A DNA stretch of 51,447 bases, taken from the NCBI GenBank assembly GCA_012799935.1, contig JAAZKG010000071.1, positions 1 to 51,447 of the forward strand. The letters are read 5' to 3'. The notes under the pieces were generated by a model. It was not told the DNA's origin, did not search any database, and saw only the letters and a program-made list of their open reading frames with translations. The position numbers were made by a program, and so were the translations under genes. Below are positions 25,101 to 29,935 of the stretch, in pieces (within the stretch, counting starts at the first letter, position 1; every line of letters starts with the position of its first letter). This DNA is from Erysipelotrichia bacterium (GTDB lineage: Bacteria; Bacillota_I; Bacilli_A; Erysipelotrichales; Erysipelotrichaceae).

Positions 25101-25130
25101 AAAATAGCGATTAATTTCGCTATTTCTTTT
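25101..25130. terminator. Bidirectional terminator between yggS and htrA
   Basis: AAATAGCGA (25102-25110) pairs with TCGCTATTT (25117-25125) around a six-base loop, with T-rich flanks on both strands. The right arm lies in the last codons of htrA. Confidence 0.82.
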
Positions 25131-26364
25131 GTTCTAGTGTAAGTAACAAGCTAATTTCTCTTTGTCCCCTCACTACTATAATTTTTACTGTATCACCAGC
25201 TGAATAATTACATAGTGCTGTTCTTAAATCTGTAAGTGATTTTATTTCAGTTCCATCAAAATTGACAATTACATCGCCAACCTTTAATCCTGAATTTCTT
25301 GCTGCATCTGTAACCACTTCTGATACATAGACTCCAAAAGAAGTAACACTAAAATTCCAAGCTTGTTGCATTGTTTCAATAGAAACTCCTCTAATTCCCA
25401 GTTGCGGTCTTCCTTCAACATATCCATAAGCAATCAATTGTTTTACCACATCAATGGCATAATTAGATGGAATAGCAAAACCAATACCTTCTATATATTC
25501 ACCTGCACTTTTAGCATTAACAATACCTATTAAATTTCCGCCAACATCAAACAAGCCTCCTCCAGAATTTCCTGGACTGATAGCAGTATTTGTTTGTAAT
25601 AAGACCATTTTTTGACCTGCAATGGTAATTTCTCTACTTAAAGCACTTATAATTCCATCAGTTACTGTACCACCTAGTGTTCCTAGTGGATTTCCTATCG
25701 CAATACACATTTGACCCACTTTAATTTGGTTAGAATTGCCAATTGTTGCTATTTTTAATCCTTCAGCTTCAATTTTTAGTACCGCTATATCACTAACTAA
25801 ATCTGCTGCAACTAACTCAGCATTATATTTATCACCAGAAGTTAAAACTACTACAATATTAGTAGCATCCTCAACAACATGATTATTGGTGATAATATAA
25901 CCATCACTAGAATATATGACTCCTGATCCTGCTCCTTCAGTTATGTATTCACCATAAAAAGAACTATATTTAGTTGACTCAGTATATACTTCAACAATAG
26001 TATCTTTTATATTGCTTACCACTTCACTAATATCAGTTTTCCCTGATATAACAACTGTAGGACTATTTACATTTTGATTTGGTTGTTCAATTACAACTGT
26101 TTTATTTTCTACGTTTTTAAGAACCGCTTTAGCTGTAATATAACTGCTTATTGTCGATACAATCACTGTTAAAACAAGCATCATTAAAATTATTCCACCA
26201 GTAAAACTTCTTTTTTCTTTTTTCTCGTTTTTGTTTTTTATTTTATCAATAGTATCAAAAATAGTTGTTGTACTTTCATCATTATCAATGATTATATAAT
26301 CATTTTCAAAACTTGATTTTTCTTCTTTTTTTACTTCATCTATATTTTCAAACGGTTCATTCAT
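25120..26364 (-). CDS. Membrane-anchored HtrA/DegP serine protease with PDZ domain
   Basis: A 414-residue protein: a 50-residue acidic/basic cytoplasmic head, one transmembrane helix (residues 55-78), a trypsin-like domain with the full triad His162 (TNNHVVEDA), Asp192 (SDIAVLKIE) and Ser267 (SPGNSGGGLF), and a PDZ domain from about residue 320 (GVYVSEVVTDAARNSGLKVGDVIVNFDGTEI). HtrA proteins degrade misfolded exported proteins. In many Bacillota htrA lies near the origin next to the parB/rlmH genes; here its neighbours are the cohesin- and dockerin-bearing proteins. The gene looks intact. Confidence 0.95.
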   Translation of the reverse strand: MNEPFENIDEVKKEEKSSFENDYIIIDNDESTTTIFDTIDKIKNKNEKKEKRSFTGGIILMMLVLTVIVSTISSYITAKAVLKNVENKTVVIEQPNQNVNSPTVVISGKTDISEVVSNIKDTIVEVYTESTKYSSFYGEYITEGAGSGVIYSSDGYIITNNHVVEDATNIVVVLTSGDKYNAELVAADLVSDIAVLKIEAEGLKIATIGNSNQIKVGQMCIAIGNPLGTLGGTVTDGIISALSREITIAGQKMVLLQTNTAISPGNSGGGLFDVGGNLIGIVNAKSAGEYIEGIGFAIPSNYAIDVVKQLIAYGYVEGRPQLGIRGVSIETMQQAWNFSVTSFGVYVSEVVTDAARNSGLKVGDVIVNFDGTEIKSLTDLRTALCNYSAGDTVKIIVVRGQREISLLLTLEQKK

Positions 26365-26403: not shown

Positions 26404-27723
26404 TTATACTTCTTTTCTTTTTAGAGTTAATGCTATTGCTGCAATAAAACTAATTGTTCCAGCTATCGCTGCCGTTAAATAAAGCATTTCTTTAACACCG
26501 ATTTTTTCTTCTACCATTGGATAAATAGGTAAAGTAAACTTCTGTAGTGTTTTTTCGCTCATTTCATAACTATAAATAGCATCGTTGCCCTCTAGATCTT
26601 TTAAGTAAATTAAACGATAATTGCTCATATTTTCTGCCAAGGAAATCCAACCATCAAATTGTTTGTCTTCAATGTTTACTTTTATTGGTTTATAAAACTT
26701 TTCTAAATCTGTATATTTTGTGTAGTCAATAGCATTAATTAAATATTGTTTTCCATCAATTTCTAGCGGTTCAAACTTATTTCCGACCACATCATTTTCT
26801 ATATCATACAAATAAAAGTCTTTGTTATTTTCGCTATTAGCTAAATATATTAAATTCAGATTACCTTTATAGAAAACTACAATTTCATTTTCTTTTACAA
26901 GAATTTCTTTTCTTTCAAATCCTTCAGGAACAATCACTTTATCTAAATTTATAACTACTCCCAAATTTTTATCTTCATAGACGATTTTTGGTTTTTCTTC
27001 AACATATAACTTTATTTTATATGTTTTTGTTGTTTTATCTTGAGCAACACAAACTACTTCTATTTCATTCCAGCCTTCTTTAACACTTTCATTTATTTTA
27101 TTAATTGTTGCTTTTGAACTGCTTGCTTTAGCTAAAACTTTAATTGTTTCAGTATTAACTGGCGCATAAGCGGTATATTCAAAAACATCTGATTCAAATG
27201 GCTGTTCAAATTCTATGTTTTCAATTTGTAAAGAAGCCAGTGATGCATCAGAAGATAAAGATGTTGTTGTCTCATTGTTTGTAGTTTTAGCCTTTATTTG
27301 CAAAGTTTTTACAATTTTTTCGCTATATCCTCCAACATATTGAGGTGGATCATAACTTGCAAACTGAGTGGTATTAACTTCGACTTTTGTTGATCCAATT
27401 TTCTTAGTTGAAAAAGTAATGCTGAATGTTACTGATTTATCTGCACTTGGCTCAACAATTATCACATTTCCTTGTATGTGCCCTCTTCCATTTAAATTAG
27501 CTGAAACATATTTTAAATATTGTGTATCATAAGAAAATATGATTTTCCCTCCACCAACACCGTTGTTACATTTTAGTTTTATTGTTAATTTAACCGTGTT
27601 TGACAGCACTACTGAACTACTAGAAAAATATGCTTCTACACTTGCGTCCGCTGCTTTTATTGGTTTTATTGTCGATACTACTATAGTAAGTATTGTTATC
27701 AATACAAAAATTCTTTTTTTCAT
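26404..27723 (-). CDS. Surface protein with cohesin-like and cadherin-like beta-sandwich domains and C-terminal anchor
   Basis: A 439-residue exported protein. A signal peptide (MKKRIFVLITILTIVV..., cleavage near AADAS) is followed by a cohesin-like domain (about residues 30-150; YFSSSSVVLSNTVKLTIKL, GGKIIFSYDTQYLKYVSANL), a cadherin-like beta-sandwich (LASLQIENIEFEQPFESDVFEYTAYAPV, about 165-245), a mixed region and a C-terminal transmembrane helix ending in LKRKEV. The start at ATG 27723 is preferred to GTG 27738 because AAAGGTG would overlap the latter. It follows the dockerin-bearing glucosaminidase by 17 bp. Cohesin identity is a by-eye judgement; the beta-sandwich match is clearer. Confidence 0.72.
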   Translation of the reverse strand: MKKRIFVLITILTIVVSTIKPIKAADASVEAYFSSSSVVLSNTVKLTIKLKCNNGVGGGKIIFSYDTQYLKYVSANLNGRGHIQGNVIIVEPSADKSVTFSITFSTKKIGSTKVEVNTTQFASYDPPQYVGGYSEKIVKTLQIKAKTTNNETTTSLSSDASLASLQIENIEFEQPFESDVFEYTAYAPVNTETIKVLAKASSSKATINKINESVKEGWNEIEVVCVAQDKTTKTYKIKLYVEEKPKIVYEDKNLGVVINLDKVIVPEGFERKEILVKENEIVVFYKGNLNLIYLANSENNKDFYLYDIENDVVGNKFEPLEIDGKQYLINAIDYTKYTDLEKFYKPIKVNIEDKQFDGWISLAENMSNYRLIYLKDLEGNDAIYSYEMSEKTLQKFTLPIYPMVEEKIGVKEMLYLTAAIAGTISFIAAIALTLKRKEV

Positions 27724-27740
27724 ATATTTATATTTCACCT

Positions 27741-29543
27741 TTATTGTTCAATGTTTCCTATTTCTAATAAATATTTTCTTAAATGCAGATAACCTAGTGT
27801 AGATATTCCTGTTTCTCCATTAATTTCTGCTGCTTTTTTTTCAATATTATTCATTTCATATATCTCTAAAAGCGCTTTTCGATATATTAGATAGTCAAGT
27901 GTTCCAATTATTCCATCACCATCAATATCCCCTTTAATAATTACGGTATAGGTGCTTTCTCCTTCATCTCCAATAATTATTAAAGCGTCTCCTGTTGAAA
28001 GTGGTAAATCTTTTGACTTTTCCGCGCCTTTTCTTTCAATTCTAATATTTACACCTGTATTCATTAGTGTAATTCTATTTAACAATTGTTGATAACTTAT
28101 CCCTATATCAAAGCCTGTTAAATGGCCTGAATCGTTTTGTAAATCTAAGTCTAAAATTAAATCGCCAGTATAATACTCTTCATTTGGAACAGTTTCTTCA
28201 ACTTCAGGTAACACAACTTCTGTTGGCAAAGCGGTTTTTTCAGGCATTTCTAAATATATTGGAATACTGAAAGTTAAAGCTTCTTCTAAAATGTCAGCCA
28301 GTCTATAGTTGGTGTACATCATTCTTCCTTCTGAAAAAGCTGCTCTAACATTAGTCGCATATTGATGCCAATATTTGCCAGTGGCACAGTTGTATTTTTG
28401 ATAGTACAAAGTGTCTTGACCTTTGTTAATGTATCCATCTGCAATCCACAATGCTCCGCCTTTAATAGATTTTTCAATGGTATTCCAAGGTCGGCCATAA
28501 CTTCCTTCCTTAGCAGCATATATTAATCCGTTTTTCCAACTTTGTTTGCCTGAATAGGCATGAATGTTGTAGAAATTGTAAATATTAGAATAAATTACTC
28601 CATTATGTTCAAACTCTCTGCCATCCACTGCAGCTGAACCATTAACTCCTTGTTCATTTCTTGCTTTTACTGCCAAGAATATTGGCGAAGTTTGAGCTTG
28701 TTGTCCAGCTTCGTAGAAAAGTGTCGCATAGCTTTTAGTTGTATTTTCATCTATTTGAACTTCGCCTTTCATAAATGTGATGTTTAATATTTGTTGAACA
28801 CATTCAGGTTGTTCAGTTTCGTTAAAAGAAAGTTTTAAAAATTGAAAAACCTCTTTTTCATTTAAAAAATTTCTTGGGTCCATAAAATAAGCGATAGTTT
28901 CAGTATTAGCTTGATACCAACTATAACCATCTAGCGCTATATATTGACCTGTTTCTGGATCATAAGCTCCTTGTCTAGTACTTCTTAAAGCTAAGTTACT
29001 TCCATCTATTAAACTTTTTCCTAGTACATCTTGGGCTTGCAAAATAGTAGCAAAAGCAGTATTTGTATGGAAGGCTTTAAATATCCAATTAGGATGTAAA
29101 GTATGCAAATATCTTAGATATACTCTATATTCCTCTGGAAATCCTTCGTTTTCTAAATGTTGTTCAAACACTTCATCTAATTCATAATAATGCAATATGA
29201 CATAATCTTCTCTAACCCAAGTTTGATATTCAATATTATTAATAATGTTAATGACATTATACCAAAGCTCATTTTTTTCATTTTTTTGTTTTCCTATAAC
29301 CTTATATGAGACATCTTCAACATAATACTGATTTTCTCCATTAATTTGAAGAATGGCATAACTTGTTGAAGGACCAGTTCTTACTCGCACATCACTTTGT
29401 GTAACTTCTAAATACACAGTTTCTTCTTGCTGTTGTTCTTGTTCCGATTCTGGTTGAGTTTCTTCTGCAAAAACATTGTTAAAAGGCTTAACGTTAATAA
29501 GCGTTGTTATAAATAATAAGACAATTAATATTTTTTTAAGCAC
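27741..29543 (-). CDS. Secreted SH3b / endo-beta-N-acetylglucosaminidase with C-terminal dockerin
   Basis: A 600-residue exported protein in domain order: signal peptide (1-27), Glu/Gln-rich linker (28-45), bacterial SH3 domain (46-115; VRVRTGPSTSYAILQI), glucosaminidase domain (about 145-420) with LHPNWIFKAFHTNTAFATIL and the catalytic-type AVKARNEQGVNGSAAVDG, then a beta-rich linker and a dockerin-like C-terminus (GDIDGDGIIGTLDYLIYRKALLEI). The calcium loop DIDGDGIIGTLD is textbook; the second repeat (AEINGETGISTLGYLHLRKYLL) is degenerate. The start is GTG, preceded by AGGAG at a normal distance. It would cut the glycan strand of peptidoglycan. The adjacent gene carries a cohesin-like domain. 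Confidence 0.85.
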   Translation of the reverse strand: MLKKILIVLLFITTLINVKPFNNVFAEETQPESEQEQQQEETVYLEVTQSDVRVRTGPSTSYAILQINGENQYYVEDVSYKVIGKQKNEKNELWYNVINIINNIEYQTWVREDYVILHYYELDEVFEQHLENEGFPEEYRVYLRYLHTLHPNWIFKAFHTNTAFATILQAQDVLGKSLIDGSNLALRSTRQGAYDPETGQYIALDGYSWYQANTETIAYFMDPRNFLNEKEVFQFLKLSFNETEQPECVQQILNITFMKGEVQIDENTTKSYATLFYEAGQQAQTSPIFLAVKARNEQGVNGSAAVDGREFEHNGVIYSNIYNFYNIHAYSGKQSWKNGLIYAAKEGSYGRPWNTIEKSIKGGALWIADGYINKGQDTLYYQKYNCATGKYWHQYATNVRAAFSEGRMMYTNYRLADILEEALTFSIPIYLEMPEKTALPTEVVLPEVEETVPNEEYYTGDLILDLDLQNDSGHLTGFDIGISYQQLLNRITLMNTGVNIRIERKGAEKSKDLPLSTGDALIIIGDEGESTYTVIIKGDIDGDGIIGTLDYLIYRKALLEIYEMNNIEKKAAEINGETGISTLGYLHLRKYLLEIGNIEQ

Positions 29544-29598
29544 AACGAAAACTCCTATCCGATTTTATTATATCACATTTATTTTTTAATCAATATAG

Positions 29599-29935
29599 TT
29601 ACCCACATGTTGATAAGTAGGTTATCCACATATGTGGAAAAATGTTTGAAATTTAAAAATTTCCTTTGTTTAAAGCGTTTTTCTCAATATAACTGTGGAT
29701 AATTCATGTGGGATACTAATTATACTCCAAGTTATCCACATTTTCCACTGTTTATAGATTTTTATTCACGAGTTATCCACATATAAAAGTCGTGGATTGT
29801 TGTGGATAACTCAAAATTTACCTTATTTATATATGTTTTTTACCTTAATTTTATTGTGGATAACTTTTTTAGACAAAAATATTAATAGATTTTTATCTGC
29901 TTAGGGGTTAATATAGTATTACTTAAAATGAAAGA
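29599..29935 (+). other. Chromosomal replication origin (oriC) with DnaA-box cluster
   Basis: The 400-bp gap before dnaA holds six exact DnaA boxes: TTATCCACA at 29622, 29732 and 29773 and the inverted TGTGGATAA at 29694, 29801 and 29855. Single-mismatch relatives stand at 29599 (TTACCCACA) and 29633 (TGTGGAAAA), the latter forming a back-to-back pair with the 29622 box. The AT-rich stretch at about 29864-29930 could be the unwinding element. Genes diverge from this point on both sides and dnaA follows at once, which fits the standard Bacillota origin. Confidence 0.93.

Follow-up and report, generated by a model that had tools for sequence, protein, structure and literature searches.

Cohesin-dockerin pairs are known chiefly for holding together complexes that degrade polysaccharides. 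Type I dockerins bind in two modes that are equivalent. The cohesin and dockerin genes of Archaeoglobus fulgidus adjoin; to our knowledge, they are not described as a repeated enzyme-plus-anchor cassette. In Clostridium perfringens, all five cohesin proteins carry GH domains themselves, and gut-bacterial cohesin-dockerin systems are known to act on external substrates (PMC12997984). In Staphylococcus aureus, the glucosaminidase SagB forms a complex with the membrane protein SpdC, which holds it (PMC10581084). A literature search, conducted mostly without subscription journals, returned no description of anchored cohesins paired with wall hydrolases.

The window analyzed here is a stretch of 51,447 nucleotides from Erysipelotrichia bacterium (contig JAAZKG010000071.1). 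An earlier note on this DNA, made from the letters alone, had proposed that two adjacent genes, here termed glcD and cohP, encode a private, non-cellulosomal pair in which an anchored cohesin-like protein holds a dockerin-bearing wall hydrolase at the membrane. Our analysis supports this proposal through recurrence of the pair, co-loss, the cohesin fold, and modelled placement, with binding as the predicted part. We believe that glcD and cohP probably form a dedicated non-cellulosomal cohesin-dockerin pair that would tether a peptidoglycan hydrolase to the membrane.

The pair has something in common with each of the closest systems. As in the cellulosome, amylosome, and mucinolysome, a type I dockerin is found on enzymes and a cohesin fold on a surface protein, but here each anchor has one cohesin, our searches usually gave one to three dockerins in a genome, and the cargo is not directed at plant material or mucin. 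We rejected a cellulosome as an explanation, as the genome has one dockerin, single-cohesin proteins, and no multi-cohesin scaffoldin. The X82 cohesins of C. perfringens are likewise non-cellulosomal and single, and two of their modules (2jh2 and 2w1n) were the best Foldseek matches to CohP; CohP, however, is a dedicated membrane anchor whose presumed cargo, usually a wall hydrolase, is the product of the adjoining gene. The non-cellulosomal cohesin 2xdh of A. fulgidus was also among the top Foldseek matches, although that system is archaeal. In S. aureus, a membrane protein similarly retains a glucosaminidase homologous to GlcD, but SpdC is polytopic and CAAX-protease-like, SagB is itself membrane-associated, and neither a cohesin nor a dockerin is involved.

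Results

The glcD-cohP locus

Both open reading frames are present and uninterrupted (Table 1). GlcD has an N-terminal signal segment and ends in the dockerin that the earlier note had read from the sequence; PF00404 matched residues 537 to 593, GDIDGDGIIGTLD, at 27.0 bits against a cut-off of 22.9, the sole Dockerin_1 match in this genome (1.54 Mb, 83.8% complete). The glucosaminidase domain matched PDB entry 6fxo (E 9.6e-14) and the SagB-type chain 6u0o_B (E 1.6e-10), and Glu297, which lines up with the glutamate of the AtlA-type motif (alignment A2), is the candidate catalytic residue. Against the NCBIfam SagB model (NF052642), GlcD scored 68.2 bits, far under the cut-off of 425. Judged by these matches, GlcD has a catalytic domain homologous to SagB but is not SagB itself. 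The beta-rich module of GlcD is common to other dockerin proteins in the order, and the closest named records are Erysipelotrichaceae and Erysipelotrichia MAGs, part of them from goat omasum or rumen (genus alignment A3).

Table 1. Features of the glcD-cohP locus, in window coordinates
Feature	Position	Strand	Basis
glcD (600 aa), secreted glucosaminidase ending in a dockerin	27741..29543	-	ORF; PDB and family matches
Glucosaminidase domain of GlcD, residues ~183-418	28290..28997	-	Database matches, alignment A2
Beta-rich module of GlcD preceding dockerin, residues ~459-533	27945..28169	-	
Type I dockerin of GlcD, residues 537-593	27765..27935	-	Pfam match
17-base glcD-cohP gap with likely cohP ribosome-binding site	27724..27740	-	Sequence
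cohP, membrane-anchored cohesin protein, 439 aa	26404..27723	-	ORF, profile matches
Signal peptide of CohP, residues ~1-24	27652..27723	-	Hydrophobicity, alignment A1
Cohesin-fold N-domain of CohP, residues ~25-147	27283..27651	-	AF2, Foldseek
Cadherin-like domain of CohP (PF12733), residues ~163-240	27004..27237	-	Pfam
Conserved beta-rich domain of CohP, residues ~244-400	26524..26994	-	Alignment, AF2
C-terminal transmembrane helix of CohP, residues ~410-435, short basic tail	26419..26496	-	Computed

The cadherin-like beta-sandwich and C-terminal membrane anchor previously ascribed to CohP were both recovered, the former by Pfam (36.4 bits) and the latter as a computed hydrophobic helix. The reported spacing of 17 bases between the genes is exact if CohP starts at the ATG at 27723; an alternative upstream GTG at 27738 falls inside the likely ribosome-binding site, AAAGGTG. 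Promoter and terminator scans gave scores no higher than those of shuffles. Throughout the genus, cohP is followed on the same strand by a gene for an HtrA-type serine protease (25120-26364, minus strand, in the window; L053 to L058), which is possibly a third operon member. Seven DnaA-box-like sites (TTWTNCACA) cluster at 29544-29935, between glcD and dnaA, in what is likely oriC, which would overlap the upstream region of glcD.

Recurrence of the gene pair

A CohP profile, run against 196 order-level genomes without reference to neighbours, recovered 44 full-length CohPs. A Pfam dockerin gene lies upstream on the same strand, ending 23 to 144 bases before CohP, in 41 cases. The remaining three have an adjacent dockerin by a local profile built from the family, clear for G029 and for contig C23 of G062 and weak (15.7 bits) for contig C4 of G095. 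The proposed co-occurrence of both genes in related genomes thus holds for 41 of 44 by Pfam and for all 44, one weakly, with the local profile. These CohPs were found by CohP sequence alone, and chance does not account for the 41 upstream dockerins.

Taking all loci that we fetched, 81 of 84 distinct CohP-like proteins bearing the N-domain have a dockerin neighbour, at a median gap of 11 bases (two of the 81 are divergently oriented and one is 1,050 bases apart). The exceptions are L066, which is cut by a contig end, L084, which is the second cohesin protein of our own genome, and L182. Another family of the class shows the pairing in 6/6 loci, and it extends to Clostridia, Lachnospiraceae, and Oscillospiraceae MAGs; among these, L122 has two pairs in tandem at one locus. 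The location beside the chromosome origin described in the earlier note holds in the own genus but not elsewhere, where the pair is found near metA, ftsA-ftsZ, or other genes, such as glycosyltransferase-like ones. Since the contexts differ, the conserved unit is the pair itself.

In G012 and G020 (L065:6836-12702 and L071:166-6263), ftsA and ftsZ follow directly after a pair of dockerin-glucosaminidase and CohP. Of the dockerins listed, about half have no CohP-like neighbour (in G008, G020, G086, G118, G143, G151, and others). Many of these sit in very large open frames of 1,500 to 5,500 codons and perhaps belong to a different system.

The dockerin partners are mostly peptidoglycan hydrolases from unrelated families. 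The majority cargo is a GH73 or SagB-like glucosaminidase, joined by GH25 muramidases (L132 and L133) and an Amidase_2 protein (L144). Others carry a metallo-beta-lactamase (MBL)-fold protein (L067, L068, L095, and L136) or a protease (S8 subtilases in L149 and L155 and an M6 peptidase in L135), while in L121 and L127 SH3 domains alone were recognised. The cohesin-dockerin link is therefore one that is retained across cargo of changing chemistry, and since the MBL-fold proteins and proteases are not wall enzymes, the cassette has uses besides wall cutting. The pair with the MBL-fold dockerin protein (L067:8276-10801, L068:7136-9644, L136, and L147) is paralogous, and several genomes that have it also carry a glucosaminidase pair elsewhere.

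Probable cohesin identity of the CohP N-domain

The cohesin-like domain that the earlier note had placed in CohP fared differently by sequence and by fold. Pfam PF00963 matched neither CohP nor 10 of its homologues, an outcome named beforehand as speaking against a cohesin, and phmmer of CohP against PDB sequences gave no match. Because PF00963 was silent, we tested the identity by fold instead. AF2 modelled CohP with a pLDDT of 82.7 and a pTM of 0.49, the latter for a chain of several domains. Using this model and that of the read-through chain described below, Foldseek retrieved the solved cohesins 2w1n, 2jh2, 4ums, 2xdh, 5nrm, 4dh2, 3ul4, and 1ohz over residues ~25 to 147, with a probability of 1.00 and TM-scores by target of ~0.54 to 0.68 for single-domain cohesins. 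Cohesins make up the main class of top matches; non-cohesin beta-sandwiches, such as BslA and integrins, also score, so the fold evidence by itself is not exclusive. A distant relative (L124) does match PF00963, at 28 bits and at the same N-terminal position as in CohP. At ~100 residues, the aligned N-domain of a second family in the order is shorter and possibly represents a reduced cohesin.

Two genomes provide a natural experiment. In G041 (a single contig, 98% complete) and G042, the CohP homologue is missing precisely the N-domain and is otherwise retained. Both lie in the same dGTPase-metA neighbourhood, with an opposite-strand gene between in G041. In these two genomes no dockerin adjoins the CohP homologue, and none scores above the cut-off genome-wide. 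This co-loss links the N-domain to the dockerin.

Structure prediction of the dockerin and cohesin together used a linked single chain. In G005, CohP is in frame after the GlcD stop, and reading the stops as glutamine yields a chain of dockerin, signal peptide, and cohesin. With 34 aligned rows, AF2 modelled this chain at a pLDDT of 92.4 and a pTM of 0.83, with low confidence limited to the signal peptide, which forms a floppy linker. We estimate that two unplaced domains of these sizes would give a pTM of ~0.55 to 0.6; against this value, the predicted placement of the dockerin on the CohP cohesin looks confident.

Dockerin repeats and the recognition dyad

Repeat 1 of the GlcD dockerin is canonical. 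Repeat 2 (EINGETGISTLG), previously noted as degenerate, has indeed lost calcium ligands but retains the recognition dyad T-L (T10-L11), which is present in both repeats. In relatives outside the genus, the calcium ligands of both repeats are mostly kept. Across 29 non-redundant pair dockerins, the dyad residues at loop positions 10 and 11 matched across the two repeats in 83% of comparisons, compared to 15% when repeats were randomly re-paired (z 13.7; 0/5000 shuffles), while the calcium-loop positions agreed less strongly (55% versus 43%). The dyad symmetry may stem partly from shared descent via internal duplication. The symmetric dyad is what would be expected of type I dockerins that bind in two equivalent ways.

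Where a genome has two pairs, the dyads can differ between them (G048, G057, G062, and G124), and in G088 the GH73 pair and the MBL pair carry different dyads. At L135:2406-8500 in G088, the gene order is dockerin-CohP-dockerin, and the dockerins of a glucosaminidase and an M6 peptidase flank one CohP; these two share a code and have nearly identical recognition helices. In G040 (L060:3229-4425), G045 (L076:6201-7499), and G058 (L077:556-1785), dockerins away from CohP match the species-specific recognition helices of the paired dockerin. The clearest case is G045, in which an unpaired dockerin elsewhere in the genome has the code of the pair. The shared helices in these three genomes suggest that a single anchor could hold two enzymes.

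A second cohesin protein in the genome

The description of the pair as private is apt on the dockerin side, with one Pfam dockerin per genome in the own genus, but not on the cohesin side. The genome (G000) encodes a second membrane protein of 347 aa with a signal peptide, cohesin, and cadherin-like domain (C41:12024-12350, plus strand; L084:6893-7936). This protein exceeds the PF00963 cut-off and has homologues in G001 and G005. There is no dockerin gene at its locus.

Discussion

In the mechanism that we propose, GlcD would be exported, and its C-terminal dockerin would dock into the N-terminal cohesin of CohP. The C-terminal helix would fix CohP in the membrane, with the cadherin-like and beta-rich domains as spacers, and docking would keep the glucosaminidase close to the outer face of the membrane. 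There, GlcD would probably trim nascent glycan strands or those of the inner wall, comparable to the role of SagB-SpdC in S. aureus. The pair would thus behave as a surface anchor for one enzyme. Our computations support the domain identities, the cohesin fold, the conserved pairing, the co-loss, the symmetric dyad, and the modelled relative placement; we infer physical binding, localisation close to the membrane, the wall substrate, and the physiological role.

A pair that binds might nevertheless serve surface display, degrading glycans or proteins of the host or competitors rather than maintaining the cell's own wall. The MBL-fold proteins and subtilases in some pairs would fit such a use, as would the gut-bacterial precedents that target external substrates (PMC12997984). 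Most of the cargo, however, is directed at peptidoglycan (GH73 or SagB-like, GH25, and Amidase_2), the anchor is a membrane protein with just one cohesin, and in the own genus the sole dockerin sits on a SagB-like enzyme, and we consider display unlikely.

The partner itself could also be another protein. The GlcD dockerin might bind chiefly the second cohesin protein, or both, with a different role for CohP and an adjacency that reflects shared regulation. That protein passes the PF00963 cut-off, which CohP does not, and is without a dockerin gene of its own alongside; yet it is CohP that takes part in the near-universal pairing and the co-loss, and the model puts the dockerin on the CohP cohesin, leaving this reading only a slim chance. 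We find it hardly credible that the dockerin is a mere calcium- or wall-binding tail and CohP an unrelated surface protein that is co-transcribed with GlcD. The degraded calcium loop of repeat 2 and the silence of PF00963 on CohP would agree with this, but the pairing persists through exchange of cargo and genome context, exactly the N-domain is lost where the dockerin is absent, the dyads are symmetric and pair specific, and the N-domain of CohP has a cohesin fold.

Returning to the dedicated pair, we favour, with some reservation, the broader view that glcD-cohP belongs to widespread, undescribed two-gene cassettes of the Bacillota, in which pair-specific cohesin-dockerin codes would attach exchangeable secreted enzymes, chiefly peptidoglycan hydrolases, to dedicated single-cohesin membrane anchors. 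If so, cohesin-dockerin recognition would have a housekeeping use, fastening chemically unrelated wall hydrolases to the membrane, and these bacteria would have a general means of placing, and perhaps regulating, such enzymes. It would account for many of the unexplained dockerins of non-cellulolytic bacteria. The positioning of exported hydrolases would become directly testable, with dozens of natural candidate pairs at hand.
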